From: Aggregatilineales bacterium
GTDB taxonomy: Bacteria; Chloroflexota; Anaerolineae; Aggregatilineales; Ch27
Length of the DNA stretch: 64,000 bases
NCBI GenBank assembly: GCA_029976005.1
Contig: JARKOQ010000208.1
Location: 62,001-126,000, forward strand
Direction: 5' to 3'
Shown here: positions 21,747 to 59,358 of the stretch, one piece after another
Layout: each line of letters starts with the position of its first letter
Position numbering within the stretch: position 1 is the first letter of the stretch
Program-made: the position numbers and the translations under genes
The notes under the pieces: generated by a model
What the model was told of the DNA's origin: nothing
Seen by the model: only the letters and a program-made list of their open reading frames with translations
Database searches by the model: none

Positions 21747-21769
21747 CCCGGTGAGAGCCGAGGAAAAGT

Positions 21770-22675
21770 ATGAGCGACGTGTTTATCGAGTGTGACAATC
21801 TGGTCAAGATTTACAAGGTCGCGGACCTGGAGGTGGTGGCGCTCCAGGGCCTTGACTTGCAGATCGCCGAAGGGGAGATGATGGCCCTGGTTGGGCCGTC
21901 CGGCTCCGGCAAATCGACCCTGATGAACATCCTGGGCGGGCTGGACCAACCGACGGCGGGCAAGGTGCGGGTAGGGGACTACAACCTGCTCAACATGAAC
22001 CGCCGCCAGCAGGTGCTCTACCGCCGCCGGATGGTGGGTTTTGTCTGGCAGCAGACGGCCCGTAACCTGCTGCCCTACCTGACCGCGCAGGAGAACGTCG
22101 AACTGCCCATGTCGCTCAACCACGTCCCCGGCAAGGAACGCCGAGCGCGCTCCAGACACCTGCTGGAGATGGTCGGGCTGGGCGGGCGGCTCAACCATCA
22201 CCCCGACCGGCTGAGCGGCGGCGAGCAGCAGCGCGTGGCGATCGCGGTGGCGATGGCCAACCAGCCCTCGCTGCTGCTGGCCGACGAGCCGACCGGCGAG
22301 GTGGACAGCGAAGCCGCCAACACGATCTTCGATTCGATGCGCGCCCTGGCCGACGAGGCCAGGGTGACGGTGGTTATCGTGACCCACGACTACACCGTCG
22401 CCACTCGGGTTGACCGGGTGGTGGGCTTCCGCGATGGCCGGACGAGCATCGAGGTGCTCCGGCGGCGGGGCGATAACGGCGTCGACATCACCGAGGAAGA
22501 GTTCGCCATCCTCGACCGGGCCGGGCGCTTGCAGCTTCCCCAGGTGTTCATCGAGTCGCTGGACATGCGCGACCGGGTCAAGCTCCGCCTGCGCGAGGAC
22601 CACGTCGGCGTTTACCCGGACCGTGACGGCCAGAGTGACCGGGACGGAGCGAATGGGAAGGAAAGGGAACGCTGA
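21770..22675 (+). CDS. ABC transporter ATPase (MacB/LolD type) with C-terminal AbrB-like extension
   Basis: GPSGSGKST, LSGGEQQRVAIAVAMANQPSLLLADEPTGEVD; extension FAILDRAGRLQLPQVFIESLDMRDRVKLRLREDHVGVYPD. Confidence 0.85.
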   Translation: MSDVFIECDNLVKIYKVADLEVVALQGLDLQIAEGEMMALVGPSGSGKSTLMNILGGLDQPTAGKVRVGDYNLLNMNRRQQVLYRRRMVGFVWQQTARNLLPYLTAQENVELPMSLNHVPGKERRARSRHLLEMVGLGGRLNHHPDRLSGGEQQRVAIAVAMANQPSLLLADEPTGEVDSEAANTIFDSMRALADEARVTVVIVTHDYTVATRVDRVVGFRDGRTSIEVLRRRGDNGVDITEEEFAILDRAGRLQLPQVFIESLDMRDRVKLRLREDHVGVYPDRDGQSDRDGANGKERER

Positions 22676-23406
22676 TGAGCCAGGCTGACCCAATCATCCG
22701 CATCAAGAACCTGCACCGGGTGTATCACCTGGGCGGGGAAGATATCCACGCCGTACGCGACGTGTCGCTGGACATCCATCCCGGCCAGATGACGGCCATC
22801 GTGGGCCGTTCCGGCTCCGGCAAGACGACCCTGCTCAACCTGATCGCCGGGCTGGACGATCCGACCGAGGGCGAAATCTGGATCGAAGGCCAGCGTCTGG
22901 CCGACCTCGACCCGGTGGCCCGCCTGGCCCTGCGCCGCGACCGGATCGGATTCGTGTTCCAGAGCTTCGGGCTGCTGCCCCTGCTTAGCGCGGAGGAGAA
23001 CGTGGGTGTGCCGCTGCGCATGCGCCGCCTGAGCCGGCGCGACCGCCAGCAGGCCGTGAAGAACGCGCTGGATTGGGTTGGGCTGAACGAGCGCGCCCAC
23101 CACCGGCCCTACGAGCTTTCCGGCGGGGAGCAGCAGCGCGTGGCGCTGGCCCGCGCCCTGGCCGCCCATCCGCACTTCATCCTGGCCGACGAGCCAACCG
23201 GCCAGCTTGATAGCCAGACCGGCAAGAAAATCCTGGCCCTGCTGCGCCGGTTTGTCAGCGAGCAGGCCATCACCGTGGTGATCGTGACCCACGACCCGCA
23301 GGTGATGGAAGAGGCCGACGTCGTCCACGAACTGCGTGACGGCCACCTGATCGACACTCGGCTCAAAAACCCGGCGGCGAATGGGGGGACCGTCAACGCA
23401 CGGTAG
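22675..23406 (+). CDS. ABC transporter ATPase (LolD/MacB type)
   Basis: GRSGSGKTT, LSGGEQQRVALARALAAHPHFILADEPTGQLD. Confidence 0.9.
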   Translation: MSQADPIIRIKNLHRVYHLGGEDIHAVRDVSLDIHPGQMTAIVGRSGSGKTTLLNLIAGLDDPTEGEIWIEGQRLADLDPVARLALRRDRIGFVFQSFGLLPLLSAEENVGVPLRMRRLSRRDRQQAVKNALDWVGLNERAHHRPYELSGGEQQRVALARALAAHPHFILADEPTGQLDSQTGKKILALLRRFVSEQAITVVIVTHDPQVMEEADVVHELRDGHLIDTRLKNPAANGGTVNAR

Positions 23407-40612: not shown

Positions 40613-43600
40613 GTGGCATCGGCAACCAGGAACGACTCGACCCCGAAACGCAAGCTACTCTGGAGTGAAGCGGCAGGCAAGCTGCTGGCGCTCGTCTCGG
40701 TGGCTGCCGCCGCGATTCTCCTGATCGTGTATGGGTGGCTGGCGCTGCGCTGGCAGCAGCAGCCGTTCGTTGGCGCGTTCTTTTCGTACATGCTGAGGGT
40801 GGAAAACATCCCGTCGATTTCGGGCGAGGCGCTGCCGGCATTCGCCGTGGGCGTGCGGCCCGGCGACCGGCTGATCGCCATCAACGACGTCAGGCTCAGC
40901 CAGAACCCGCACGTGGCTCAGGCCCAGTTCCAGCAGGAGCTGTCCCGTCTGGAGCCGGGCCAACTTGTCACAATGCGGCTGGCGCGCGCCGCCGGGGGGC
41001 CGACGGTCCAGACGCGGACGCAGTGCGCGCCGGACAGCGCGTCGGGGGCCGGCGACCGCCTCCTGTGCAGCACGATGTACCGCCTGGCGCCGATGCAGAC
41101 CATCGATTTCGTCAGCCTGTTCGTGGTCAGCTTCGGGGTGGGCGTGCTGGGGGTGATTTTTGCCGGCGTGCTGCTCTGGAAGCGCTGGAATCAGCCTGTC
41201 GCGCGCCAGATCGCCGTGTTGAGCGCTTTGTTGAGCGTGGTGGCGAGCGGCCTGTACGACACGTATACCGGCCATCAGATCACGCCGCTGGTGCAGCTTT
41301 CCGGCATGGTGTTGGTCGGGGGCATGCTGTTGATCCTGGCGCTGACTTTCCCCTCCGCGCAGGCTGCGTTGCGGCGGCGACCGGCCCTGCGCTTCGCGCC
41401 GCTGGCTCCGGTGGCGATCGTGCTGGGATTGATGGCGCTGATGCTGTATTCTCCCAGTCCGGACCGCGTGTGGTTCCCCGGTCCGCTGGCCTACAGCTTC
41501 GTGCTGATCTGCGCCGCGATCTATGTCGTGGCGCTGGCGCGCCGCCTGAATCAGAGCGTTTCCCCAACGGCGCGCGATCAAACCACGATTGGTCTGGTAA
41601 GCCTGCTGCTGGCGATCGCGCCGAGCGTGGTGTGGGTCATCACCATCGGGCTGCAATCCCTGTTGCCGGCGGAGAATCTCACGTTTCACTTCTCGCTGGC
41701 GACGCCGTTTTTCCTGCTGCTGCCGCTGGGATTGGTGTACGCCCTGGCCCAGGACCGGCTGCCTGACAGCGACCGGGTCATCACGCGCGGGATCGTATAC
41801 GGCCTGATGGCCGGGGGCGTGGGGGTGGGATACGGGCTGGTCGTGGCGGGCGCGACGCTGTTCGCCGGGTCGGCCGTCCAGATGAACAACCCGGTGGTGA
41901 TCGCGGTCCTGGTGTTCCTGATGGCGCTCCTGTTCGTGCCGGTGCGCAACCTGCTGGAACGACGGGTCGACAGCGCGTACTTCCGGACGCACCGGCTGTA
42001 CCAGCAGCGGGTGGAAAGCCTGGCGCAAGACCTGACTCGCGTCAATACCCTGGGCGGCATCGTGGACGCCATCCGGCGCCATCTGACCGAGACCCTGGCT
42101 CCGACTCACGCCTTCCTGTTCTTCCCCGACCCGGAGTCCGAGCAGTACATCGCACACGGCGTCCCGGTTCCGGAGACGGATGTGCGCTTCAGCGCGCGCA
42201 GCCCTCTGGTGCAGCTTCTGGGCCGCCAGCAGCGCGTTCTGTACCTGGAAGCCGGGCAGCCGCTGCCGGCCGATCTGGCCCCGGAACGGGCGCGGCTGGC
42301 GGTGCTCGGCGCGCCGGTGCTGGTGCCCCTGCGCGGGCAGGAACGGTTGAGCGGCATTCTGTTCGTCGGGCCGCGCCAGTCGTTCGAGCGCTACCACTAC
42401 GACGACCTGCGCTTCATCCAGAGTCTGGCCGATCAGGCCGCGCTGGCGGTCGAACGCGCCCAGGTTATCGCCAACCTGGAGCAGCGCGTGCGCGAGATGA
42501 ACGTGCTCGGCCAGGTGGCCCAGGCGGTCAACTTCACGATCGAATTCGACGACCTGCTGGAGCTGATCTACGCCCAGACCAACCGCGTGATCGTCGCGCC
42601 GAATTTCTACATCGCCCTGCGCGACCCGAATACCGACGAGATGTACTTCGCTTTCTACTCCGAGAGCGACGAGCGCATCCAGGAGAACGAAGGCGATCGC
42701 TGGCGCATGGGCCGCGACCTGTTGAGCGAGATCGTGCGCGGCGGCCAGCCGATGCGCGTCGAGAACTACGCGGCCGAAGCGGCCCGGCGTGGCGGATTCC
42801 AGCCGCTTAAGAACCCGAACCTCAAAGCGTGGATCGGCGTACCCCTCAGCGCGCCGGGCACGGCGATCGGCGTGATGTGCGTGGGCAGCACCCAGGCCAA
42901 TGTGACCTACGGCGACGACCAGTTGAAAATCCTGTGGCAGATTGCCGACCAGGCCGCGACCGCCATCGACAAGGCGCGGCTGTTCCGGGAGACGCAAATC
43001 CGCGCCCGCCAGCTCAGCGCCCTGAACCAGATCAGCACCCAGCTTGCCAATGTGTTCAAGGAACCGGAACGCCTGCTGGAGCTGATCACCGAAAGCGCGG
43101 TCACCATTCTGGAAGCCGAGGCCGGGTCGCTGTTGATGATCGATTCGGAAACCAACGAGCTTGAATTCAAGGTGGCGATCGGCAGCGAGGCCGATCACCT
43201 GGTCGGGACGCGCCTGGCCCCCGGCACGGGCCTGGTCGGCACGGTGGCCGACCGGGGCGAGCCGGTGATCGTCAACGATACCACCCGCGACCCGCGCTGG
43301 TTCTCCGGCGTGGACGACGACATCCAGTTCCGGACGGATACCCTGATGGCTGCGCCGCTGATTGGCTCGGCCGGCGTGATCGGGGTGCTGGAAGTGATCA
43401 ACAAGCACGATGGCGGCGTGTTCGTCGAGGATGACAAACGCCTGCTGATGACCTTCGCGGGGCAGGCGGCCATCGCCATTGAAAACGCGCGTCTGTTCCA
43501 GATGACCGACCAGCAGCTTGCGGCGCGCGTGGAAGAGCTGGACACCATGCAGCGCATCGACCGCGAGCTGAACGAGACCCTGGAACTGCGGCGCGTGCTC

Positions 43601-44785
43601 GACCTGACCCTGGGCTGGGCCATGCGCGAGAGCGATGCCGTGGCCGGGGCGGTGGCGATGCTCGTGGGCGAGGGCGATGCGCTGGAGGTGGTGGCGCACC
43701 AGGGTTATCCGGACGGGGTCGAAACCGGGATGTTTGGGATGCCCCTGCCGGTCGATCACGGCGTCGCCGGGCGCGTGGTGCGTTCCGGCCGTCCGGAGCT
43801 TGTCTCGGACGTCCGGTTCGACGATGACTACATGGAAGTTCTGCCGGGTGGACGCAGCCAGCTCACGGTGCCTCTGGTGACCGGCGGTAAAGCCAGCGGC
43901 GTGATCCTGCTGGAGAGCGACCGTGAGAACGCATTCTCCTTGCTGGACCTGGACTTCGTGACCCGTCTGGCCGAACATGCCAGCCCGGCCATGGCCAACG
44001 CCTCGCTGTTCGACCAGCTCCAGCGAGCCAATGCGGCCCGCAGCGAGTTCGTGGGCGTGGTGGCGCACGAGTTGAAGACCCCCATGACCAGCATCCGGGG
44101 CTTCGCCGACCTGCTCCTGGGCGGCGTGGTTGGCCCGATGAACGAGCAGCAGCGCAACTTCCTGGGCACGATCCGGTCCAATGCAGATCGACTGACGTCC
44201 CTGATCAACGATCTGAACGACGTGACCAAACTCCAGACCGATCGCATGGCTATGGAGATGGCCCCGATCAACTTCGGGGATGTGGTTCAGGAGACCCTGC
44301 GGCCATTGCAGCGCCTGATCGAGGACAAGGGACAGCGCATTGATCTTCAAGTCTCCGACAAACTGCCGGCGATCTATGCCGACCAGAACCGCCTGATCCA
44401 GGTGATGACCAACCTGATCACCAACGCCCACAAGTACACGCCGGACGAGGGCACGATCGTGATCACGGCCCGGCCGGGCCGCAACGTGTGGGATTCGAAG
44501 GGCGCGCCGGAAGTCCTGCACGTGACCGTCAAGGACGATGGGATCGGGATCAGCGAGGAAGACCAGGCCCAGCTCTTCAAGCCCTACTTCCGCACGACCA
44601 ACCCGGAGGCGCTCGATCAGCCGGGGACCGGGCTGGGGCTGGTCATCGTGCGCGGGATCATCCAGCAGCACGGTGGCCAGATCTGGCTGGAGAGCAAGCT
44701 GGGCCAAGGCTCCACCTTCCATGTCACGATTCCGCTGGCTTCGGCCGTACCGGAGGCTCGCCAGAAGGCGACCGCAGCCGACTGA
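40613..44785 (+). CDS. Multi-GAF sensor histidine kinase with PDZ-like and multi-TM N-terminus
   Basis: GTG start; GVRPGDRLIAINDV (PDZ-like), ~8 TM, several GAF segments, EFVGVVAHELKTPMTSIRGFADLL H-box, VKDDGIGISEEDQAQLFKPYFR...GTGLGLVIV. Confidence 0.88.
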   Translation: MASATRNDSTPKRKLLWSEAAGKLLALVSVAAAAILLIVYGWLALRWQQQPFVGAFFSYMLRVENIPSISGEALPAFAVGVRPGDRLIAINDVRLSQNPHVAQAQFQQELSRLEPGQLVTMRLARAAGGPTVQTRTQCAPDSASGAGDRLLCSTMYRLAPMQTIDFVSLFVVSFGVGVLGVIFAGVLLWKRWNQPVARQIAVLSALLSVVASGLYDTYTGHQITPLVQLSGMVLVGGMLLILALTFPSAQAALRRRPALRFAPLAPVAIVLGLMALMLYSPSPDRVWFPGPLAYSFVLICAAIYVVALARRLNQSVSPTARDQTTIGLVSLLLAIAPSVVWVITIGLQSLLPAENLTFHFSLATPFFLLLPLGLVYALAQDRLPDSDRVITRGIVYGLMAGGVGVGYGLVVAGATLFAGSAVQMNNPVVIAVLVFLMALLFVPVRNLLERRVDSAYFRTHRLYQQRVESLAQDLTRVNTLGGIVDAIRRHLTETLAPTHAFLFFPDPESEQYIAHGVPVPETDVRFSARSPLVQLLGRQQRVLYLEAGQPLPADLAPERARLAVLGAPVLVPLRGQERLSGILFVGPRQSFERYHYDDLRFIQSLADQAALAVERAQVIANLEQRVREMNVLGQVAQAVNFTIEFDDLLELIYAQTNRVIVAPNFYIALRDPNTDEMYFAFYSESDERIQENEGDRWRMGRDLLSEIVRGGQPMRVENYAAEAARRGGFQPLKNPNLKAWIGVPLSAPGTAIGVMCVGSTQANVTYGDDQLKILWQIADQAATAIDKARLFRETQIRARQLSALNQISTQLANVFKEPERLLELITESAVTILEAEAGSLLMIDSETNELEFKVAIGSEADHLVGTRLAPGTGLVGTVADRGEPVIVNDTTRDPRWFSGVDDDIQFRTDTLMAAPLIGSAGVIGVLEVINKHDGGVFVEDDKRLLMTFAGQAAIAIENARLFQMTDQQLAARVEELDTMQRIDRELNETLELRRVLDLTLGWAMRESDAVAGAVAMLVGEGDALEVVAHQGYPDGVETGMFGMPLPVDHGVAGRVVRSGRPELVSDVRFDDDYMEVLPGGRSQLTVPLVTGGKASGVILLESDRENAFSLLDLDFVTRLAEHASPAMANASLFDQLQRANAARSEFVGVVAHELKTPMTSIRGFADLLLGGVVGPMNEQQRNFLGTIRSNADRLTSLINDLNDVTKLQTDRMAMEMAPINFGDVVQETLRPLQRLIEDKGQRIDLQVSDKLPAIYADQNRLIQVMTNLITNAHKYTPDEGTIVITARPGRNVWDSKGAPEVLHVTVKDDGIGISEEDQAQLFKPYFRTTNPEALDQPGTGLGLVIVRGIIQQHGGQIWLESKLGQGSTFHVTIPLASAVPEARQKATAAD

Positions 44786-44805
44786 TCCAGTTGCCTGGAA
44801 ACGCG

Positions 44806-44838
44806 ACGGCCCGCCACTCACGGCGGGCCGTTTTGTTT
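44806..44838 (+). terminator. Rho-independent terminator of kinase
   Basis: ACGGCCCGCC ... GGCGGGCCGT + TTTGTTTT. Confidence 0.8.
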
Positions 44839-46529: not shown

Positions 46530-46800
46530 CAACAAAAAAGCCCGTCCTCGACAGAGGACGGGCTTAGAGCTTACCCGCGGTACCACCTCGTTTGACAGCG
46601 TTTGATGGGGTGAACCAACACCAAACGCCATCCTCTCTGGCCGTGTAACGGCGGCAAACCCGGCGCGGGATTGCCCCCGCGCGACTCCCCGGCCCATTCA
46701 GCGCTCGTTCACACGCCGGGCCTTGCAGCCTGAGGGTCCGGCTCTCTGGGAGGAAACACCGCGCTTACTTTTCCGGTTCAACGTCTTTATTGATTCAATT
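46530..46800 (-). promoter_or_regulatory. T-box leader, probable tryptophan specificity
   Basis: Minus strand: AGTA motif; AGAGAG...GGCTGCAAG stem I elements; candidate UGG specifier in TGAATGGGCC (46694-46696); hallmark GAGGTGGTACCGCGGGTAAGC (46576-46590 core); terminator AAGCCCGTCCTCTGTCGAGGACGGGCTTTTTT (46535-46565). Confidence 0.93.
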
Positions 46801-46940: not shown

Positions 46941-48605
46941 TTAGCGGCCGATCCCGGCGCTGCCGCCGAAGGCCGCCGAGATTTCGGCATAGATGGCGCC
47001 GATGTTGCCCACGTTGCCCTCGTAGAAGATGCCGTTGGTCGCCAGCGCGATATTCCGCATGGTCGTCCGGTCGGCGTCGTCGCCGTAGGCGATGGTATAG
47101 ACTGACGCGCCGGAGTCGAAGACGATGCGGGAGAACGTCGCGTCCGGGCTGTGGAAACGGCTGCTGGACGTGTCCTGGCCGTCGGTCAGGACGACCATGG
47201 CGTTGGCCGTATCCGCCCGGCTGGTCTTGAGCATGGCCTCCGCCGTGAAGGCGATGCTGTCATACAGCGCCGTGCCGCCCCCGGCGGTAATGGTGTTGAT
47301 CTGGTTGATGATGTTCTGGCGGTTGCCCTCGATTCGGGTGGCGGGAACCAGGATGCGCGGGTAGTTATCGAAGATGATCACCGTCACCTGGTCACGGTCG
47401 CCCATCTGGGCCACGAACTCGATCGCGGAGAGGCGCAGCAGTTCGATCTTCTGGCCTTCCATGCTGCCGGAGATATCCAGCACCATCGCCAGATTGACGT
47501 TCTTGCGCTGGGCCTGCCACAGTTCCTGGATGGCGAAGACGCTTTCCGGGCTGGTGGAGGCGAACACGCGCGCCGGCTGGGCCGGATCGGCCCCATGCGC
47601 GGCGTCGATCGGCGCGCCGAGGGCCACCGCGTCGTTGATCGGGCGCAGGCCCAGCGCCAGGGCCTGGGTCTGGGCCGGGACATCGCGCAGGTAGGCCAGG
47701 AACGTCTCGGCTGCGTGGGTGGTCGTGTCGTCCATTTCCGCCCTGACGCAGGTCGGGAAGGTTGCCACGAAGGTCCCCTCGTAGGGATAGATGGCGACCA
47801 GGCGCGGGTCGCGCTCGCCCTGGGTGATCACGGCGTTTTCGTACATGATCCCAGCGTTGAGGTAGGTGATTCCGCGCTCCAGCATGGTCGCGGCGAGCTG
47901 ATCCGTGCTGGTGCTGAACCACGCCACGGCGCTCTCGAACGCGCCGACCGAGGCCTGGACGATCGGGTTCTGGACTGCGTCGACCGAAATCTGGTCGGGC
48001 GAGGCTTCGGCGGCATAAACCAGCGCCAGCAGGGTTTGCGCGCCGCTCTCCGACAGGCCGGGATGGCTGTGGCCGAGACGCAGGGTCTGGCCCCATTCCC
48101 CGCCGCTGTAATAAGCCCAGCCGGAGGGATCGGCGGCCAGACTGGCCGTGTCCAGCCAACCCAGGGTGCTGCCCGGCCAGCCGAGGGCGCGCGCGACCGG
48201 CTCCCACATGGCGATCACCAGCGGGCTTTCGGCGATGCTGACGCAGTTGGGCAGGAAAATCTCGCGCCCGGCCGACTGGTGCAGCACCTCGCGCCACTGG
48301 GGATCGGCGGCCGTCCACAGGACGGGCAGTTCGGCCCCGGCCAGCATGTCGGCCACGGCCTGGCCGGCGTCGGCGCTCACGGCCTCGATGTAGATCGGGC
48401 GGCCATCTCCGGCGTTGATGCGCTGCCGGTTGAATGCATCGGTGACCTGCGCGGCCCAGGCGTTCAGGCTGGTGCTGTGCACCCAGCGCAGCACCAGGGC
48501 ATTGCTGGGCTGGCCGCCCAGGCCGCTGCCGTCGCAGGCGGCAAGCAGCAGCACGACGGCCAGCAGCCCCAGCGCCAGCCGGCGCGGAAGGTTCGAGTGA
48601 GGCAT
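46941..48605 (-). CDS. Lipoprotein: solute-binding-like domain fused to C-terminal vWA domain
   Basis: LLAACDG lipobox-like; SBP-like N-terminal half; NVNLAMVLDISGSMEGQKIELLRLS (MIDAS DxSxS) and MVVLTDGQDT. Confidence 0.82.
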   Translation of the reverse strand: MPHSNLPRRLALGLLAVVLLLAACDGSGLGGQPSNALVLRWVHSTSLNAWAAQVTDAFNRQRINAGDGRPIYIEAVSADAGQAVADMLAGAELPVLWTAADPQWREVLHQSAGREIFLPNCVSIAESPLVIAMWEPVARALGWPGSTLGWLDTASLAADPSGWAYYSGGEWGQTLRLGHSHPGLSESGAQTLLALVYAAEASPDQISVDAVQNPIVQASVGAFESAVAWFSTSTDQLAATMLERGITYLNAGIMYENAVITQGERDPRLVAIYPYEGTFVATFPTCVRAEMDDTTTHAAETFLAYLRDVPAQTQALALGLRPINDAVALGAPIDAAHGADPAQPARVFASTSPESVFAIQELWQAQRKNVNLAMVLDISGSMEGQKIELLRLSAIEFVAQMGDRDQVTVIIFDNYPRILVPATRIEGNRQNIINQINTITAGGGTALYDSIAFTAEAMLKTSRADTANAMVVLTDGQDTSSSRFHSPDATFSRIVFDSGASVYTIAYGDDADRTTMRNIALATNGIFYEGNVGNIGAIYAEISAAFGGSAGIGR

Positions 48606-48624
48606 GGTGATGGTCTCCTCCTGG

Positions 48625-50232
48625 CTAGCGGCCGACCGTGATCAGCGACATTTCGACGAAACGGTCGAGCGCCTGAAGATCGGGATCGTCGGTGTTGCGG
48701 CGCTCCTCCGGGGGGAGGGCGGCATCGACCACGAAGCGGGCCGGGTCGAGGCCCTGCGTGACGAGGTAATCCACGACGGCCTGGCCGCGCGCCAGCCCGA
48801 AGTCGTAGATGTCCTGCTCGGTGTAGGTGCCGGCCGGGCCAGGCCAGGCCGAGGAGCCGGTCACGCGCAGGAAGATGCCCACGCTGCTGCTCATGATCGG
48901 GATCACGCAGTCGTCCAGGATGCGGCGCGATTCAAGCGTCAGCTCGGCCGACTCGGGCAGGAAGGTGAAGCGCCGGCAGGGCAGCACGCCCAGCGTCTCG
49001 CCGGATTCGGGCGCGATCGTGGAGAGGTCGGGCCGCGAGCCAATCGAGAAGGTGGTGTTGATGGGCAGGGCGCTGGTTTGAAGCTCCGGGCGCGCCCCGG
49101 CTTCCAGCACGAAGCGGGGATCGATCAGGTCGGCCACGGCGTCCTGCGGCACCGCGACTCCGGAAGCGGCCCACACCCGGCGGGCCACGTCCAGGCGCTG
49201 GGCCAGGGCGCTGGTATCGCGCATCACGGTCAGGTTATTGAGCAGACTGGCCTGGGCGATGTGCTCCAGCCAGGCGGTCAGGTCGGCGCTGGCCGTTGCG
49301 GTGTAGACGAACGTCCAGTCATTATGCCCCCAGGCCGCGATCTGGCCGGCGGCGGTGTCGAAGTCCTCGAACTGGGCCTTGAGGGTCTGGAACCAGGCGT
49401 TGTGGAAAGCCTGGACGACGTCCGGCTTGCCTTCGATGGCCTGTTTGGAGGTGGCGATTACGTCGATGATGATGCGAAGCTGCTCGGAACTGAGCAGGGA
49501 TACGCCGCCGCTTTCCGCCGCGTCGTAGATGTTCGGCTCCCAGCCGGATACCGCGTCGGCCTGCCCGCGATTGAACAGGTCGACCGCTTCGCTGACCGAG
49601 CTGGCCGGAACGAGCGTCACGTTGGAGCGCGGGTTGAGACGGGCGACGTTGAGGGCGAACAGGGTGAAATACTCACCCACGCTGCCCCGCGAAAAGGCGA
49701 TGCGCTTGCCGCTCAGGTCGTTGATCGTGGGGATATCGCGCACCCAGAGCTGGTCGGCCCCGGCGCTTTCGTCCACAATGGCCGTGATCACCCCGGCGCT
49801 GCTGAGGGCCAGGCTGTTGGCGGTGGTCAGCAGGCAGTCCCATTGCCCGGCGCTGAGCGCGGCGATGCGCCGGTCTTCGGTGATGCTGAAGTCGCTCATG
49901 CCGTCCAGATCGAAGGGAATCAGGCCCAGGTGAAAGCCGTTCTCGACGTCGATCCCCGCCACGACCATCTGCTGGAGCGTGAAATAGCTGCCGAAGGAGT
50001 CGGCGGCGCAGACGTAGGTCGGCAGCCCATCATTCCGGTTGACGCCAGCCGCGAACAGCGGCTCGGCCAGGATGGGCACTTCGGTGGGCAGCGGGGCGAT
50101 GACGGCGACGGTGGCGCTGGGAACAGGGGTGGGGCCTTTCAGAATCCCGGTCTGGCTGACCAGGCTCGCCCCAATCACGATCAGCGCAACGACGATGATG
50201 AACAAAAATAACACGACTCGGCCACGATTCAT
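48625..50232 (-). CDS. Membrane-anchored solute-binding (NMT1/SsuA-like) protein fused to OmpA-like C-terminal domain
   Basis: N-terminal TM; AADSFGSYFTLQQMVVAGIDVENGFHLGLIPFD...DLSGKRIAFSRGSVGEYFTLFAL; C-term RFTFLPESAELTLESRRILDDCVIPIM...YDFGLARGQAVVDYLVTQGLDPARF...DRFVEMSLI. Confidence 0.75.
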   Translation of the reverse strand: MNRGRVVLFLFIIVVALIVIGASLVSQTGILKGPTPVPSATVAVIAPLPTEVPILAEPLFAAGVNRNDGLPTYVCAADSFGSYFTLQQMVVAGIDVENGFHLGLIPFDLDGMSDFSITEDRRIAALSAGQWDCLLTTANSLALSSAGVITAIVDESAGADQLWVRDIPTINDLSGKRIAFSRGSVGEYFTLFALNVARLNPRSNVTLVPASSVSEAVDLFNRGQADAVSGWEPNIYDAAESGGVSLLSSEQLRIIIDVIATSKQAIEGKPDVVQAFHNAWFQTLKAQFEDFDTAAGQIAAWGHNDWTFVYTATASADLTAWLEHIAQASLLNNLTVMRDTSALAQRLDVARRVWAASGVAVPQDAVADLIDPRFVLEAGARPELQTSALPINTTFSIGSRPDLSTIAPESGETLGVLPCRRFTFLPESAELTLESRRILDDCVIPIMSSSVGIFLRVTGSSAWPGPAGTYTEQDIYDFGLARGQAVVDYLVTQGLDPARFVVDAALPPEERRNTDDPDLQALDRFVEMSLITVGR

Positions 50233-50509: not shown

Positions 50510-51781
50510 CTAGATCAGCAGACTCAGCGGGTTTTCGATCAGGCGCTTCATTTCCTGCATGAACTGGGCCGCCTCGGCTCCATCGGTGACGCGGTGATCG
50601 GCGCTGATCGTGATCTTCAGGCGCGCGCCGGCGCCCAGCGTGCCGTCCGGGTGAACGACCGGGACCTGTTTGGCCGCGCCAATCGCCAGGATGGCCGCTT
50701 CCGGTGGGTTGATGATGGCGACAAAGGTGTCGACGTCGAATGGTCCCAGGTTGCTGACCGTGAAGGTGCTGCCTTCGACGTCATCCGGGCGAACCTTGCC
50801 ATCGCGGGCGCGCTGGATCATCTCCCTGGTCTGGACGGCCAGCGTGCCGAGCGCGGTTTTGTCCGCGTCCCTGGCGACCACGTTGATCAGGCCGCTTTCC
50901 AGGGCGACGGCGATCCCGATGTTGATCCGCTTGTGGCGCACGATCTTGTCCCCGTAGAAGTGCGAGTTGAGGTTGGGGAACTTGCGCAGGGCCAGGGCGG
51001 CGGCCTTGACGATCAGGTCATTGACGCTGATCCGGGCTTCTTCCGGCAGGGTCGCGTTGATCTGTTTGCGCAGGGTCAGCAGGGCCTGGACATCCATTTC
51101 GGTGGTCACGTAGAAGTGCGGGACCTGCTGTTTGGCCTCGACCATGCGCTTGCCGATCCGGGCGCGCAGCTTGTTGGTGTCGATGATCTCGACGTCCGGG
51201 CCGGAAGGCAGCGCGCCGAAGCTGGGAGCCGGGATGGCCGCCGGAGCTGCGCCAGCCGGGGCCGCCGGACGGGCCGCGCCGGGCCTGGCGCTCTCGACGT
51301 CCTTCCTGACGATGCGGCCGCCGGGGCCGCTGCCCGCGACCTGGGCCAGGTCCACCCCGCGATCGGTGGCGATCTTACGCGCCAGGGGGCTGGCCTTGAC
51401 CCGGCCTCCCTCCTGACCATTGCCTCTGGGGAGCGAGGGCGCGGCGGCGGGGGCGGCTGGTTCCGCCGGAGCGGTCTGTTCCGCCGGAGCCGGAGCGGCC
51501 GCCGCCTTGGGCTGGGGCGCTGCCCCGCCTTCCACGGCCTCGCCGGCCTGGCCGACGAGGGCGATGTCCGCGCCAACGGGCACCACTTCGCCGGGGTTGG
51601 CCAGATGCTTGAGCAGCACGCCGCTGGCGCTGGTCTCGATTTCGATCGTGGCCTTGTCGGTCTCGATCTCGGCGATCACGTCACCCTTGTTGATCGTGTC
51701 GCCCGGATTCTTGACCCACTTGACCAGCGTGCCTTCGGCCATGTCGAAGCCCAGCTTGGGCATCTGAATGGGTTCCGCCAT
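50510..51781 (-). CDS. pdhC: Dihydrolipoamide acyltransferase (E2)
   Basis: Lipoyl domain (EIETDKATIEIETSASG), E3-binding domain (ASPLARKIATDRGVDLAQVAGSGPGGRIVRKDV), catalytic ISADHRVTDGAEAAQFM. Confidence 0.92.
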   Translation of the reverse strand: MAEPIQMPKLGFDMAEGTLVKWVKNPGDTINKGDVIAEIETDKATIEIETSASGVLLKHLANPGEVVPVGADIALVGQAGEAVEGGAAPQPKAAAAPAPAEQTAPAEPAAPAAAPSLPRGNGQEGGRVKASPLARKIATDRGVDLAQVAGSGPGGRIVRKDVESARPGAARPAAPAGAAPAAIPAPSFGALPSGPDVEIIDTNKLRARIGKRMVEAKQQVPHFYVTTEMDVQALLTLRKQINATLPEEARISVNDLIVKAAALALRKFPNLNSHFYGDKIVRHKRINIGIAVALESGLINVVARDADKTALGTLAVQTREMIQRARDGKVRPDDVEGSTFTVSNLGPFDVDTFVAIINPPEAAILAIGAAKQVPVVHPDGTLGAGARLKITISADHRVTDGAEAAQFMQEMKRLIENPLSLLI

Positions 51782-52770
51782 TAGAGCACCTCTTTCACCG
51801 CCGCGACGACCTTCTGCGCGTCGGGCAGGGCCATCATCTCGATGTTGCTGGCATAGGGCAGGGGGTTATCCAGGGCGCTGACGCGCTTGACCGGGGCGTC
51901 CAGGTAGTCGAAGACCTGATCCTGAATCTGGGCGGTCACTTCCGCCCCCACATTGTAGCGCGGCAGCGATTCCTCGACGATTACGGCGCGGTTGGTTTTC
52001 TTGACGCTTTCGAAGACCGGCTCCAGGTCCAGCGGACGCAACCAGCGCAGGTCGATGATCTCGGCCTCGATGCCGTCCTTGGCGAGGATGTCGGCCGCCT
52101 GGGTCGACCATTCCAGACCCTTCTGGTAGGTGACGATCGTGACGTCCTTGCCCTGGCGCTTGACATCGCTCTTGCCGATGGGCAGCACGAAATCGGGGTC
52201 ATCCGGAACCACGCTGCGGCGCTGGAGCATAGTCGAGTGTTCAACGAACATGACCGGGTTATCGTCGCGGATGGCGGCCTTGAGCATGCCCTTGGCGTCG
52301 TAGGCGGTGCCGGGAACGGCGACGTACATGCCGGGGAAATGGGCGAAGACGACTTCTGGCGCATGCGAGTGGGTCGCGCCAAGCTGCTTGCCGCCGCCGG
52401 TCGTGGTACGCAGGACCATGGGCACCTTGAACTGGCCGTTGAACATGTAGCGCACCTTGGCCATGTGGTTGACGATGGCGTCCATCGCCACGAAGGCGAA
52501 GTTGATGGTCATGATCTCGGCGATTGGCCGCAGGCCGGCCATGGCCGCGCCCACCGCCGAGCCGGCGATAACCATCTCCGAGATGGGGGTATCGCGCACG
52601 CGGCGCGCGCCGAATTCGTCCAGGAAGCCGCGGGTGACCGCGTAGGTGCCGCCCCAGACGCCGACTTCCTCGCCCATGATGAAGACCCGCTCATCGCGGA
52701 GCATCTCTTCGCGCAGGGCGGCGCTGAGTGCTTCGCGAATGGTGATATTCTTCTCAGCCATGACAGTCAT
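51781..52770 (-). CDS. pdhB: Pyruvate (2-oxoacid) dehydrogenase E1 beta
   Basis: ITIREALSAALREEMLRDERVFIMGEEVGVWGGTYAVTRGFLDEFG. Confidence 0.93.
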   Translation of the reverse strand: MTVMAEKNITIREALSAALREEMLRDERVFIMGEEVGVWGGTYAVTRGFLDEFGARRVRDTPISEMVIAGSAVGAAMAGLRPIAEIMTINFAFVAMDAIVNHMAKVRYMFNGQFKVPMVLRTTTGGGKQLGATHSHAPEVVFAHFPGMYVAVPGTAYDAKGMLKAAIRDDNPVMFVEHSTMLQRRSVVPDDPDFVLPIGKSDVKRQGKDVTIVTYQKGLEWSTQAADILAKDGIEAEIIDLRWLRPLDLEPVFESVKKTNRAVIVEESLPRYNVGAEVTAQIQDQVFDYLDAPVKRVSALDNPLPYASNIEMMALPDAQKVVAAVKEVL

Positions 52771-52775
52771 TTCCT

Positions 52776-53753
52776 TTAGGCGTAAACGTAACTGACCAGG
52801 TCTTCGTAGGTGGGAACGGGGCTGCTTTCGGCGAATTCCACCGCTTTGGCGATTTCGTCCACGACCTCGACCTCGATCTTGTCCAGGGTGGCCTGCACGC
52901 TCTTGTGTTTCTCAATCAGCCGGTTGCGCAGGACGCCGATCGGGTCGCCTTCGGCATAGCGGGCGACTTCGTCCTTGGTGCGGTAGCGCTCCGGGTCGCC
53001 CATGCTGTGACCCTGGAAACGGTACGTGCGCGATTCCATGAACAGCGGGCGGCCGTTCCTGGAAATCCACTCGATGCCCTTGCTGACTGCCTCGTGCACT
53101 TCCACGACATCCATGCCGTTGAAGCTGAGCGAGAAACCGGGGTCCTGCTCCAGGCCGTAGCCGATGCCTTTCTTGACCAGATCGGCCTGGCCGCTGGCGC
53201 GGTCGACCGCGGTGCCCATGCCGTAGCCGTTGTTTTCCACCAGCCACAGGACGGGCAGACCCCACACCGCGCTCAGGTTCAGGGACTCGTGGAAATAGCC
53301 GATGTTGGTCGCGCCGTCGCCCATCATGGCGACCACGACTTCATCTTCTTCGAGATACTTGGCCTTGAGGGCGATCCCGGCGGCCAGGGGCAGATGGCCG
53401 CCGACGATGCCGTGGCCGCCCCAGAAGTTCTTCTCACGGGAGGCCAGGTGCATGGAGCCGCCCTTGCCGCCGCTGACGCCGGTGCGCTTGCCGAGCATTT
53501 CCGCCATCACGGCGTTGACGTCCAGGCCCATCGCCAGGGCGATGCCGTGGTCGCGGTAGGCAGTGATGGCGTGGTCATTCTGACGAAGCGCCGCGGCGAT
53601 TCCGACGCCCGTGGCTTCCTGGCCGATATAGAGATGCAGGAACCCGCCGATTTTGCCTTGCTGATAGAGTTCCGCGCATTTCTCTTCGAACCGCCGGATC
53701 AAAACCATCTGGCGGTACCAGTTGATCATGGTTTCCTTCGTAGGTGCTGCCAT
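52776..53753 (-). CDS. pdhA: Pyruvate (2-oxoacid) dehydrogenase E1 alpha
   Basis: MVLIRRFEEKCAELYQQGKIGGFLHLYIGQEA...GDGATNIGYFHESLNLSAVWGLPVLWLVENNGYGMGT. Confidence 0.93.
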   Translation of the reverse strand: MAAPTKETMINWYRQMVLIRRFEEKCAELYQQGKIGGFLHLYIGQEATGVGIAAALRQNDHAITAYRDHGIALAMGLDVNAVMAEMLGKRTGVSGGKGGSMHLASREKNFWGGHGIVGGHLPLAAGIALKAKYLEEDEVVVAMMGDGATNIGYFHESLNLSAVWGLPVLWLVENNGYGMGTAVDRASGQADLVKKGIGYGLEQDPGFSLSFNGMDVVEVHEAVSKGIEWISRNGRPLFMESRTYRFQGHSMGDPERYRTKDEVARYAEGDPIGVLRNRLIEKHKSVQATLDKIEVEVVDEIAKAVEFAESSPVPTYEDLVSYVYA

Positions 53754-53985
53754 AATACTCCTCGATGCGCAAATAATGAGTGTGTCTTAACACTCTTCAA
53801 GGGGGGATATGCGCTTGGTTCGATTCGCCAGTTTACCGTAAGAAAACGGGGCTTGGCAAACCGCATCCGCGATTTTATCCAATTCTAATAAAAACTGTCT
53901 GAAACGGGTCCCGCGCCCGATTTATCTTGTATTGGCAGCGGTGCTAGAATACAGGCGGGTTCCTGATTCACTCGGAAGGTATTTC

Positions 53986-56900
53986 ATGCCTCAGGTTCGT
54001 GTCGGCCGGTTCGATGCGCGGTGGCGGGCGCTCTTGCTGGCGGCAGGCGGGCTGTTGCTGGCAGGGTTGCTGAGCCTTGGCATTGGCGGCTACCGCAGTG
54101 TGTTGATCCGGCAGGCCCAGCGCGACCTGCGCCAGAATCAGGCGGACGCGCTGCTTCGGTTTGAGGCCGAGCTGGAAAATACGATCGACGCGCCGCTCTG
54201 GCTTCAGATGACTCTGACCGGAGCCGGCGGCTCCGATCTCCAGACGCCGGACCAGGTTTTCGAGCAGATCATGGCCGAGCGTCCCTGGATCCGGCTCCTG
54301 GCCGCGTTTTCCCCGGAAGGCGAGGTGCAAATTCATCCGGTCGGGGAGGCGGCCCTGCTGGACCGGCTGCCTCTTTCCGAGGGAGAGCCGAACGTGCCGC
54401 TGGTGGGCCGTCCGGTGGAACTCGCCGCTGGGCAGTGGCTGATTGGGGTGGACTACCTGATCCAGACCGGCGGCATGCCGCCAACCCACCTGCGAATGGT
54501 CGTGGACATCGGCTTGCTGATCGAGCGCATGCTCCGGCCTGAGTCTGGATCGGGCCTGGAGATTGGGCTGAGACTGGCTGATGGGACAGTCCTGATCGAT
54601 CCGGGCGTGTTCGAGCAAGAGCCAGTCCTGGAGTCGCTCGCGGTTCGCGCGCAGCGTTTGGAGATCGGCCTGGCGCCGGCAGGTGGATGGGCGGCCCAGA
54701 TTCAAGGGCCGCTTCTGGCGGCGATCGCCGTGACGCTCGGCTCGATTCTGCTGGTTGGCGGACTGGGATATGTGTTCGTGTCCAGGAACGCCTATCTGAG
54801 ACAGCGGACTCGAACGCTGGAGGAGCTTAACCAGGCGCTGCGCGACAGCGAAGCGCGCGCGCAATCGCTGGTGGAAATGGCTTTCGACGCGACCCTGGGG
54901 CTGGATTCCACTGGCCGCGTGGCGTTCTTCAATGCCGCGGCTCGCCAGATGTTCGGCCATTCGGCCGAGGAAGCGACTCACCTGCCGCTGGCTGCTCTGC
55001 TGCCCGCTCTGCCGCTGCCCGAGGATGGCTCCAGTCCGGTCGACGCGCTGATGCGGCTACAGCAGAGGCCGGATGCGTCCAACGCGCCGCTCGAAACCCA
55101 GGGGCGGCGCGCCGATGGCACCCGGTTTCCGGTGGAAGTCTCGATGGTCACCATGGATTGGGAGGCGGGCGAGCGCCTTGTGGTGATGAGCATTCGAGAC
55201 ATCACCCAGCGCGTGCGGCAGGCGGAAGCCCTGCTGCGCAGCGAGGCGGTGTACCGTTCCCTGGCCGAAGACGTGCTGGACAGCTCCGCCGTGGGGATTT
55301 TCATCCTGGATTCGACGTTCAGCGTGTTCTGGATCAACCAGGCCATGGAGCGCTACTTTGGTATTGACCGGCTGGAGGTGATCGGCCAGGACAAGCCGCG
55401 CCTGATCCGGGAACGGCTCCGGCAGAAATTCGAAGCGCCTGAGGAGTTCGAGGCGCGCGTGCTGGCCACCTACGCGAACAACACCTACATCGAAAACTTC
55501 GAGTGTCACATTCTGGCAGGGCCTGAGCAGGAGGAGCGCTGGCTGGAGCATTGGAGCCAGCCAATCACGAGTGGTCTGTTCGCGGGCGGCCGGATCGAGC
55601 ATTATTACGATATCACGGCCCGCAAACGGGCCGAGCACGCGCTGCTGGCGTACCAGGAGGATTTGCGCAGCAAGAGCTATTCGCTGCAAGTACTGAATGC
55701 GGTGTCCGATCTCCTCTACCAGTCTCTCGATTTTCGGACGGTGGCCCAGCAGGCTCTGAATTTCGCACAGGCCTATACCGGCGTGCCAGGGATTGCCCTG
55801 TATTTTCTGCCGGTGGAAGGCGACCAACTGCGCCTGGTGGTTTCGCGGGGCTTCTCACCGGCGATGCAGACCGTCATGGCCACGCTGCCGATGCGGAGTC
55901 TGACCGGCACTGCCGCGATCGAGGGGGAAATCCTGGTCGTCCCCGACATGATGCAGGACGATCGCACGGCGGTGACCATCCGGGACCAACTGCGGGAAGA
56001 AGGCTATGTCGGTGGGGTGTTCATCCCGCTGTTGTACCAGGGGCAAAGTCTGGGGGCCATTAACCTGCTCTACAAGGACGTCTACGAGCCGGTGCCGCAG
56101 CAGTTGGAGACGCTCGAATCGATCGCCAAGACGATCGGCGTGGCGCTTTCCAACGCGCGCTACGTGGAGCAGATCGAAGCCGAAATCAACGAGCGGGCGC
56201 GCGCCCAGGAAGCCGAGCACGAGCAGCGGATGTGGGCCGAGGTCTTGCAGGACAACGCGGCCGCGATCACCCGCACCCTGGACCTGGAGGAAGTTCTTGA
56301 CCGGATTCTGGACGGCATTCGAAGTGTCATGCCAGAGTACGAGGATGCGGTCCTCATCCTGGTCGAAGAGGGCGTAGGACGGGTCATGCGCTTGCAGGGT
56401 GAATATCCCCTGGCCTTCGACGACGATCCCTTACACTGCGATATTCAGGTGTATGCCAACCTGCGCTGGATGCACGAACACCAGCAGGCGCTGGCGATCC
56501 CCGATACAAAGGCGTATCCGGGCTGGGTGATCCGTCCGGGAACGGGCTGGGCGATGTCCAGTGTTGGGGCGCCGATCTGTATGGAAGGGGTGGTCATCGG
56601 GTTCCTGCTGCTCTACAGCGACCAGGTGGGTGCCTTTACCGATCAGCATGCCCGGCGTCTGCAATCCCTGGCGGACCAGGCCGGGATTGCCATTTCCAAT
56701 GCGCGGCTGTTTGGCGCCGTCCAGCGCCAGCGCGGGATCGACAGCGCCTTGCACGATCTCAGCATGCTTCTGAACAGTTCGCTCTCGCTGGAAGAAACGC
56801 TCGATCGGCTTCTGGCGGGGGTGCGCACGGTGGTGGCCTGTGATGCCGCCAATCTGCTGATGATCGAAGGCGATAGAGCGCGTGTCGCGCGCGCGTTGGG

Positions 56901-59358
56901 ATACGAGCAGCGCGGCCCCTTTGATCCGTTCGGCCTGGTCATCGAGATGAAAAACGCGCCTAATCTGAAGCAGGTGTTGGATCAGCGCGGCGTCCTGATC
57001 ATTCCCGATGTCACCCAGTACCCAGGCTGGCTGCCGATCGAGGGGGTGGAGTGGATCCGATCCTGGGCCGGCGTCCCCATCGTCCTGAGGGATGGCAAGA
57101 TCGCTGGCATCCTGGCGCTCGACAGCGCGTTGGCCGATGCCTACAATGATGCGCAGCGGCCCGTGCTGATGTCGTTCGCCAATTCGGCGGCGATCGCCAT
57201 CGAGAACGCGCGCCTTTTCGAGGCGGAAAAACGGGAACGTCATTTTGCCGAGGTGCTGCGCGACATCGCGCTGCTGCTCTCGTCCTCCCTGGATCGGACC
57301 AGCATCTTCACGGAAGTGCTGCATCAGGTGCGGCGCGCGCTGCCTTTCACCACGGCTGCGGTCTGGCTGCCCAGCCCGGATGGCCTGCTCAGGGCGGTGG
57401 CGACTGTCGGCTATGAGGAACTGGGCCTGTACGAACAGGTTCTTTCGCTCGCCTTTCCACCCGCCATTAATCTGTCAGACTACGGTGACCTGAAAGACTT
57501 CCCGATCGTGATCCGCCCTGACGTGCGAGATTACCCAGGATGGCGCCGCGAGCCGGGATTCGAGTGGATCCGTTCCTGGGCGGCCGTGCCATTCGTGATT
57601 CGCGGCGAGCTTGCTGGCCGCCTGACCCTGGATGGCGATCAGGTCGGCATGTATCAGACCGAACACGAGCCATTTTTGACTGCCCTGGCCCGGCAGATGT
57701 CGCTGGCGCTCCAGAACATGCGGTTGTTTGACAAAACCCAGCAGTATCTGAACCAGATGTTCGCCCTGCGCCACATCAGCCTGGAATTGGCGGCCAGCCA
57801 GCAGGCTCGCCTGGCGATTCTGGACGTGGTCGCCGACCGGTTCGTGGAGCTGCTCGACGCGGACGAACACGTGGTCTGGCTGTGGGATGGGATGGAGGAC
57901 GCGCTCTACCCGATGGCATTCCGGCGCAGCTTCGAGCACGGCGGCGAGGATCTGCCCCGGCTGGAATGGGGGGAAGGGATGCCTGGCCGGGCGCTGGCCC
58001 AGCGCCAGACCTTGCGGACCAATGCCTATGCCGGATCGGTCGGCCAGCCCGATCCGCTGCGCGGGATGCCCTATCACGCCATGCTGGCCGTGCCGATGTG
58101 GTGGCAGAATGCGCCGGTTGGGGTTCTGACGGCGGTGATGGCGCGCCCTGACCGGCGCTTCAGCGAGGACGACGAGCGCCTGATCCAGCTCTTCGCCGGG
58201 AACGTGGCTTCGGCGCTGGTCAATGCCCAGTTTTACGAGGAAATCCAGGGCTATGCCTCGACGCTGCAAGAACTGGTCGATGAAAAGACCGTGCAGCTTC
58301 AGGCCGAGCGTCGCCAACTCGATGCCATCCTGAACGGCATGGCTGAAGGCGTGACTTACGTCGAGAACGGCGTCACGCGTTACGTCAACCGGGCGTTGAG
58401 CGAGATGACCGGGTATTCAATCGAAGAACTGCTTCAGATGAGCGGGCATCCCCAACTGCTGACCCTCGGCCATGACTCCGGCCAGAGCCGGGAATACTCA
58501 GAACGACTGGCGCGCGTCCTGGCGCTGGGTGGGGTGTGGCGCGAGGAAGCGCTCCTGCGACGGAAGGATGGCAGCGAATTCGACGTCGGAGTAACCACAA
58601 CGCTGGTCAGCCCGGACCAGACAGGCAGTGGAACCGTGACGATTCTGCGGGATATCAGCCAGGAGAAAGCCCTCCAGGAACAGAAGGACCAGTTTATCGC
58701 GCATGCGTCGCACGAGCTGCGCACTCCGATCGCCAATATCAAAACCCGGCTGTATCTCTCCCGGCGGCAGCCCGAACGGCTGGAAGAGCACCTGGCGGTG
58801 CTGGACTACGTTTCGGAGCGGATGCGCCTGCTGGTGGAAGACTTGCTGGATTTCTCGCGGTTTGGCCGGGGCAAGATCACGCTGCATCTGGAGGAGATGA
58901 TCTTGCAGACGGTGATCGAGCATGCCGTGTGGGTGCTCCACTCCGACGCGGAGCAGAAGCAGATTCAACTGGCGGTCGATCTGCCGGTCGAGCCGGTCGT
59001 CGTCCTGATCGATCCGGGGCGCATGGAGCAGGTGCTGACCAATCTGGTGGCGAACGCGATCAACTATACGCCGGCCGGGGGACGAATCGCCATCCAAATC
59101 GAGCTGGAGACTCAGCCGGAGTCGCTCGTGCACGTTCGGGTGAGCGATACCGGGATCGGGATTCCGGCCGATCTGCTGGAGCATATCTTCGAGCCGTTTT
59201 TCCGCGTCAACGAGAAAGCGGTCGGCGGCACCGGGCTGGGCCTGCCCATCGCCCGGAACATCGTCCGGGCGCACGGCGGCGAACTCAGCGTGGAAAGCAC
59301 GCCGGGCATGGGCAGCACCTTCCACTTCACCCTCAAGCGCATTGTGAACCCGGAGTGA
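53986..59358 (+). CDS. Giant sensor histidine kinase (extracytoplasmic sensor, PAS, multiple GAF, PAS, HisKA, HATPase)
   Basis: RBS GGAAGG before ATG 53986; ~1,790 aa; DQFIAHASHELRTPIANIKTRLYL H-box; DTGIGIPADLLEHIFEPFFRVN...GTGLGLPIA. Confidence 0.9.
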   Translation: MPQVRVGRFDARWRALLLAAGGLLLAGLLSLGIGGYRSVLIRQAQRDLRQNQADALLRFEAELENTIDAPLWLQMTLTGAGGSDLQTPDQVFEQIMAERPWIRLLAAFSPEGEVQIHPVGEAALLDRLPLSEGEPNVPLVGRPVELAAGQWLIGVDYLIQTGGMPPTHLRMVVDIGLLIERMLRPESGSGLEIGLRLADGTVLIDPGVFEQEPVLESLAVRAQRLEIGLAPAGGWAAQIQGPLLAAIAVTLGSILLVGGLGYVFVSRNAYLRQRTRTLEELNQALRDSEARAQSLVEMAFDATLGLDSTGRVAFFNAAARQMFGHSAEEATHLPLAALLPALPLPEDGSSPVDALMRLQQRPDASNAPLETQGRRADGTRFPVEVSMVTMDWEAGERLVVMSIRDITQRVRQAEALLRSEAVYRSLAEDVLDSSAVGIFILDSTFSVFWINQAMERYFGIDRLEVIGQDKPRLIRERLRQKFEAPEEFEARVLATYANNTYIENFECHILAGPEQEERWLEHWSQPITSGLFAGGRIEHYYDITARKRAEHALLAYQEDLRSKSYSLQVLNAVSDLLYQSLDFRTVAQQALNFAQAYTGVPGIALYFLPVEGDQLRLVVSRGFSPAMQTVMATLPMRSLTGTAAIEGEILVVPDMMQDDRTAVTIRDQLREEGYVGGVFIPLLYQGQSLGAINLLYKDVYEPVPQQLETLESIAKTIGVALSNARYVEQIEAEINERARAQEAEHEQRMWAEVLQDNAAAITRTLDLEEVLDRILDGIRSVMPEYEDAVLILVEEGVGRVMRLQGEYPLAFDDDPLHCDIQVYANLRWMHEHQQALAIPDTKAYPGWVIRPGTGWAMSSVGAPICMEGVVIGFLLLYSDQVGAFTDQHARRLQSLADQAGIAISNARLFGAVQRQRGIDSALHDLSMLLNSSLSLEETLDRLLAGVRTVVACDAANLLMIEGDRARVARALGYEQRGPFDPFGLVIEMKNAPNLKQVLDQRGVLIIPDVTQYPGWLPIEGVEWIRSWAGVPIVLRDGKIAGILALDSALADAYNDAQRPVLMSFANSAAIAIENARLFEAEKRERHFAEVLRDIALLLSSSLDRTSIFTEVLHQVRRALPFTTAAVWLPSPDGLLRAVATVGYEELGLYEQVLSLAFPPAINLSDYGDLKDFPIVIRPDVRDYPGWRREPGFEWIRSWAAVPFVIRGELAGRLTLDGDQVGMYQTEHEPFLTALARQMSLALQNMRLFDKTQQYLNQMFALRHISLELAASQQARLAILDVVADRFVELLDADEHVVWLWDGMEDALYPMAFRRSFEHGGEDLPRLEWGEGMPGRALAQRQTLRTNAYAGSVGQPDPLRGMPYHAMLAVPMWWQNAPVGVLTAVMARPDRRFSEDDERLIQLFAGNVASALVNAQFYEEIQGYASTLQELVDEKTVQLQAERRQLDAILNGMAEGVTYVENGVTRYVNRALSEMTGYSIEELLQMSGHPQLLTLGHDSGQSREYSERLARVLALGGVWREEALLRRKDGSEFDVGVTTTLVSPDQTGSGTVTILRDISQEKALQEQKDQFIAHASHELRTPIANIKTRLYLSRRQPERLEEHLAVLDYVSERMRLLVEDLLDFSRFGRGKITLHLEEMILQTVIEHAVWVLHSDAEQKQIQLAVDLPVEPVVVLIDPGRMEQVLTNLVANAINYTPAGGRIAIQIELETQPESLVHVRVSDTGIGIPADLLEHIFEPFFRVNEKAVGGTGLGLPIARNIVRAHGGELSVESTPGMGSTFHFTLKRIVNPE

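Follow-up and report, generated by a model that had tools for sequence, protein, structure and literature searches.

Two adjacent genes from an uncultured member of the Chloroflexota each join a solute-binding protein (SBP) domain to a non-transport module, and their products are predicted to form a receptor rather than a transporter. They lie in a stretch of 64,000 nucleotides from contig JARKOQ010000208.1 of an Aggregatilineales bacterium (hereafter, the window); gene A encodes an SBP–vWA lipoprotein and gene B a membrane-anchored SBP–OmpA-like protein. With a probability that we put at roughly 0.5, the two proteins constitute the extracytoplasmic arm of a PspA/TelA-type envelope-stress or surveillance module. 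We favour a receptor over a transporter because the two-gene core is conserved, ABC genes are missing from its surroundings, related loci are linked to PspA, TMcc (a membrane coiled-coil protein of about 280 amino acids) and TelA, and homologous partners are fused to a kinase.

Domain architecture of the pair

The initial annotation had proposed two consecutive minus-strand genes, each combining a solute-binding-like domain with a vWA domain bearing a MIDAS in one case and an OmpA-like domain in the other. Its coordinates are exact, and both modules are supported by the matches given below the feature list.

48625–50232 (−): gene B, membrane-anchored TauA/SsuA-like SBP with a C-terminal OmpA-like domain, 535 amino acids
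50152..50226 (−): N-terminal transmembrane helix of B, residues 3–27 (structure model)
49093..50031 (−): SBP domain of B, residues 68–380, with 42% of positions at least 95% conserved
48637..48999 (−): OmpA-like domain of B, residues 412–532; R482 kept, S460 invariant, C terminus always ..GR
46941–48605 (−): gene A, lipoprotein with SBP and vWA domains, 554 amino acids
48534..48605 (−): signal peptide of A with lipobox LAAC and predicted lipidated Cys24 (C24 invariant in the alignment)
47571..48500 (−): class-II SBP domain of A, residues 36–345, with a sulfate-binding-protein-like fold
47016..47510 (−): vWA domain of A, residues 366–530, with a complete MIDAS (D377, S379, S381, T445, D475)
46944..47015 (−): C-terminal tail of A, ..SAAFGGSxG(I/V)GR, residues 531–554, the most conserved segment of A

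Protein A matches the Pfam families VWA (PF00092, 6e-19) and SBP_bac_8 (2e-5). In its fold model (mean pLDDT of 89), the first part matches class-II binding proteins, for example 1sbp, a sulfate-binding protein (TMt 0.71); the second part matches vWA domains, namely those of alpha2delta, ITIH4 and CMG2. All five MIDAS residues (D377-x-S379-x-S381, T445 and D475) are invariant among 28 aligned sequences. With its lipobox (L-A-A-C24), class-II SBP domain and C-terminal MIDAS vWA domain, A has the full composition of the SBP–vWA lipoprotein family, in which the N terminus carries either a lipobox or a transmembrane helix.

The sequence of B matches NMT1 (4e-6) and the SsuA family (3e-19), and the SBP part of its model matches TauA 6ssy (TMt 0.74). 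Taken alone, the B protein of the window matches OmpA (PF00691) weakly, at E = 0.06 and under the Pfam cut-off; the same Pfam model is matched by 27 of 27 members of the B family (best E of 1e-5), and a profile built from the C-terminal part finds OmpA-type solved structures at E = 7.7e-5. On these profile matches, the C-terminal region has the fold of the OmpA C-terminal domain, established at the family level. A lipoprotein nature of B was ruled out for most members, which have no lipobox.

In OmpA of A. baumannii, diaminopimelate is bound by Asp271 and Arg286 (PMC5974059). We looked for this pair in the OmpA-like domain of B and found the Arg (R482) retained and the Asp of the GxTD motif replaced by an invariant Ser (G459-S460-S-A-W), so that peptidoglycan binding is without residue-level support. 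At the threshold of at least 95%, 42% of positions are conserved in the SBP domain of B and 44% in its OmpA part, from which we infer that the clefts of B may still bind a ligand. Both proteins terminate in an invariant Gly-Arg, within ..FGGxxGxGR in A and ..GR in B.

Conservation and genomic context

Genes B and A are separated by 19 bp in the window. Scanning species genomes with B yielded 39 loci, all of them assigned to Chloroflexota by title and 55–79% identical; for most relatives, identity to the window is 55–60% for B and 44–50% for A. In each of the 33 loci where the contig continues (window included), A and B are same-strand neighbours; some of these loci are near-duplicates (L010, L014), which leaves fewer than 33 independent cases. 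A follows B at a median distance of 40 bp (range −11 to 292). Loss of this neighbourhood, or domain searches that did not back the vWA or OmpA assignment, had been set beforehand as possible refutations; neither occurred. Because identity is moderate and the outer neighbours of the pair vary among loci, recent synteny alone does not explain the adjacency. A strong match to B occurs in only 5 of the 101 genomes sampled from the order, so the B–A form is dispensable. One genome (G340) carries an expanded set, SBP–OmpA, SBP–vWA and SBP–OmpA (L148 7072–11914(−)); in another (G354), a SpeA-like decarboxylase gene is followed by two SBP–OmpA genes (L149 4435–9443(+)).

The initial annotation had also noted that no ABC genes are adjacent, and a motif screen agrees. 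The screen, which detects ATPase motifs (Walker A/signature) and is blind to permeases alone, found no ABC ATPase-like ORF within 20 kb of the pair in the window; the nearest (21755–23406) is about 24 kb away. Among 39 relatives, such an ORF was present in the fetched DNA of one, about 7 kb from the pair. By this ATPase motif screen, the linked permease and ATPase genes of an ABC importer are not found at the pair, and a transporter was rejected as the main explanation.

Three genes for a 2-oxoacid (pyruvate-type) dehydrogenase complex (E1 alpha, E1 beta and E2; 50510–53753(−)) lie 277 bp upstream of the pair on the same strand, an order shared with L003; at that place, L002 carries a SpeA-like decarboxylase gene. 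The region is flanked on the opposite strand by two very large sensor histidine kinases of 1390 and 1808 amino acids (40613–44785(+) and 53932–59358(+)); in the second, Pfam recognises five GAF domains and three PAS domains. Downstream of gene A, a hairpin of 12 pairs with a T-run (46538–46565, minus strand) resembles an intrinsic terminator. Two long ORFs (48604–50211(+) and 40655–44821(−)) each lie exactly antisense to a real gene; these seem to reflect the high G+C content and not to be genes.

Decarboxylase, PspA and TMcc genes

A gene for a SpeA-related, PLP-dependent decarboxylase is found upstream of the pair in 33 of 40 loci (the 40 include the window), directly so in 25. The protein matches SpeA at 1e-47, yet falls far under the family cut-off; nearly all copies keep the PLP-lysine motif YASKAN and a C-D-S-D-D motif. 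A close relative of the window's genome (L002/G324) has the gene, and the L003 pair has none beside it. When the window's genome (82% complete) was searched with a relative's sequence, no match was obtained.

PspA genes share an operon with these proteins at L007, L009, L028, L034, L084, L086, L122 and, weakly, L123. At the first four of these, PspA/IM30 comes directly after A, and at L009, L028 and L034 it is followed by TMcc; L064 has copies of TMcc on both sides of the pair. PspA adjoins the pair in a minority of loci only and does not do so in the window, the genome of which has its PspA gene elsewhere. There, on C143 (L147 3734–9778), the order is response regulator/histidine kinase, PspA, Ser/Thr kinase, TMcc and NfeD; the genes from PspA to NfeD are contiguous, and the Ser/Thr kinase bears a zinc-ribbon-like motif and TPRs. 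TelA (PF05816) is absent from the window's genome, and control genomes gave matches. Since the decarboxylase is unmatched in the genome and PspA and TMcc are at another locus, the window locus is a bare two-gene core.

Related loci in other lineages

Full-length homologues of the SBP–vWA protein are widespread in Chloroflexota. We fetched 47 other SBP–vWA loci from the phylum; they were chosen among the top hits, and some come from closely related species. Within 400 bp, 30 of them have an SBP partner on the same strand (21 stand-alone, 9 joined to a kinase); within 2.5 kb of the SBP–vWA gene, TMcc occurs in 20 and a PspA-like gene in 5, and 14 loci have no SBP partner, TMcc or PspA-like neighbour. 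PspA, SBP, SBP–vWA and TMcc genes occur together at L122 and L123. Pfam confirmed the PspA label at L084, L086 and L122; the L123 protein falls under the cut-off, and the label that a small profile had given at L128 was not upheld.

The kinase of the nine kinase-joined loci is of the Ser/Thr type; in the window's genome, a kinase of this type is found with PspA and TMcc at the separate locus. We examined the whole of the L080 and L081 partners, which consist of a zinc ribbon, a Pkinase domain, a linker, one transmembrane helix and an SBP domain. The partner SBP belongs to SBP_bac_11 in other lineages, in contrast to the NMT1/TauA-like domain of B; the partnership has therefore been re-formed and not simply inherited. 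Single chains of the zinc ribbon–kinase–TM–SBP_bac_11 type are encoded at L080 10874–13294(−) and L081 5687–8215(+), and also at L096–L099, L101, L102 and L131, with the kinase/SBP frame split at L096. These genes sit directly upstream of the SBP–vWA lipoprotein gene, and the SBP domain is predicted to be extracellular.

A distant SBP–OmpA gene in G229 (L060) lies between genes for a TMcc-like protein and a coiled-coil protein that resembles PspA by eye and has no Pfam match. Outside Chloroflexota, the pairing recurs in proteobacteria: a Thiodictyon plasmid encodes an SBP–vWA protein followed by an SBP protein, and a Sphaerotilus plasmid encodes, in a row, an anchored protein that resembles these SBPs (a putative SBP), TelA, SBP–vWA and a transmembrane protein, so that TelA is directly upstream of the SBP–vWA gene. 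The hint in the initial annotation that TelA-like or band-7 genes might be neighbours is thus borne out by Sphaerotilus and by the PspA–kinase–TMcc–NfeD cluster of the window's genome. Actinomycetota have full-length SBP–vWA proteins that are 28–31% identical to A (for example, WP_332880827.1), followed by a transmembrane/coiled-coil protein.

A proposed receptor and the alternatives

As a receptor, the pair would work as follows. A small extracytoplasmic ligand would be captured by the SBP domains, and this would promote a metal-dependent contact of the vWA/MIDAS domain of A, either with B or with a component of the wall. B would pass the signal on, through the membrane or along it, to PspA and TMcc and also to a Ser/Thr kinase, which in the window's genome is encoded at a different locus; the output would be adjusted membrane protection. 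Against this reading stand the position of PspA beside the pair in only a minority of loci, the lack of a decarboxylase match in the window's genome (82% complete) and the 14 bare loci among 47. Sequence comparison adds two points that also weaken it, namely the different partner SBP family between lineages and the dispensability of the B–A form in the order.

The initial annotation had left the choice between surface receptor and envelope tether; the receptor is the better supported of the two, and the tether is weakened by the loss of the diaminopimelate-binding Asp. A structural tether or adhesin is unlikely. The SBP folds would then be rigid extracellular domains, and the vWA–MIDAS and OmpA-like domains would join a surface layer or the wall to the membrane with no signal passing. 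This would suit the lipid anchor on A and the helix anchor on B, the structural roles that are common for OmpA-like and vWA domains, and the very strongly conserved C-terminal tails of the two proteins; however, the SBP domain of B is conserved like its OmpA part, unlike a mere spacer, the GxTD Asp is lost in B, and relatives have a kinase-fused partner.

We consider it quite improbable that the pair is a polyamine- or arginine-linked sensor, for which the SpeA-like decarboxylase would produce or consume the measured ligand, within the link between PspA and polyamine genes that has been reported for other operons (PMC11237479). The frequency of the gene upstream of the pair and its retained active-site motifs speak for such a sensor, but the decarboxylase is so far under the SpeA cut-off that its substrate is not inferable from the family, the gene is missing from the window's genome and from beside the pair in L003, and kinase- and TMcc-type loci elsewhere show no such gene. 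It is very unlikely that A and B are orphan SBPs of an ABC importer encoded elsewhere, delivering an anion or a sulfonate-like solute: orphan SBPs exist in bacteria, the TauA/SsuA-like and sulfate-binding-like folds are in keeping with this role, and ABC ATPase-like ORFs occur about 24 kb off in the window, but 38 of 39 relatives have none in the fetched DNA, the vWA and OmpA-like fusions are kept in all, and the partner SBP is kinase-fused in another lineage.

The receptor reading may extend beyond the B–A family. Tentatively, we suggest a widespread and undescribed class of bacterial receptors made of two SBPs, in which a lipoprotein SBP–vWA would present the ligand through its MIDAS to an anchored SBP co-receptor. 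The other half of the co-receptor would be swapped between lineages (OmpA-like, Ser/Thr kinase or nothing), and the co-receptor would report to PspA and TMcc.

Relation to known systems

Each element of the pair has a precedent, and the description of the system as poorly described was only partly right. PBPB–OmpA proteins in PspA/Snf7 operons have already been reported (Ravi et al. 2024, PMC11237479), and an SBP–vWA family has an NCBI name. The published PspA/Snf7-AAA+ operons resemble the present family in having an SBP (PBP type II) fused to OmpA near PspA. They contain an AAA+ ATPase, an ABC ATPase and a permease, whereas the window pair is without ABC genes and its family has an obligate SBP–vWA lipoprotein partner; 'vWA' does not occur in the main text of that paper. 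The NCBI 'substrate-binding and VWA domain-containing protein' of Actinomycetota has the same SBP and vWA build as A and is uncharacterised; unlike for A, no OmpA-type partner was seen.

Action of an SBP on a Ser/Thr kinase is established for GlnH–GlnX–PknG of mycobacteria and corynebacteria, and the authors of that work also note kinase–SBP fusions (PMC6069109). There, as proposed here, an SBP lipoprotein serves as a kinase sensor and not for transport; the differences are another SBP family, the lack of a vWA domain and signalling through a separate membrane protein, GlnX. The TelA/XpaC-type stress genes are approached by the Sphaerotilus locus, with TelA between the anchored putative SBP and SBP–vWA, whereas the window's genome is without TelA. 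The alpha2delta subunit of voltage-gated calcium channels, among the best vWA matches of A in both sequence and structure, likewise joins an extracellular vWA/MIDAS domain to a small-ligand-binding domain; it is eukaryotic and offers an analogy only. The ligand domains of alpha2delta are Cache domains, not SBPs.

Searches of the open-access literature did not turn up the two-SBP pairing, the exchangeable partner or the kinase-fused form of Chloroflexota, which is weak evidence, and gave nothing useful on SBP–vWA proteins with TelA or in Chloroflexi.

Implications

Outside proteobacteria, the extracellular cue of PspA-type systems is largely open. The conserved unit of two SBPs combines ligand clefts with a metal-dependent adhesion site, and one lineage adds a kinase within a single polypeptide; it offers concrete proteins in which to study ligand, contact and output. 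In Chloroflexota, where few stress pathways have been studied, transport proteins have repeatedly been turned to what are likely receptor roles.
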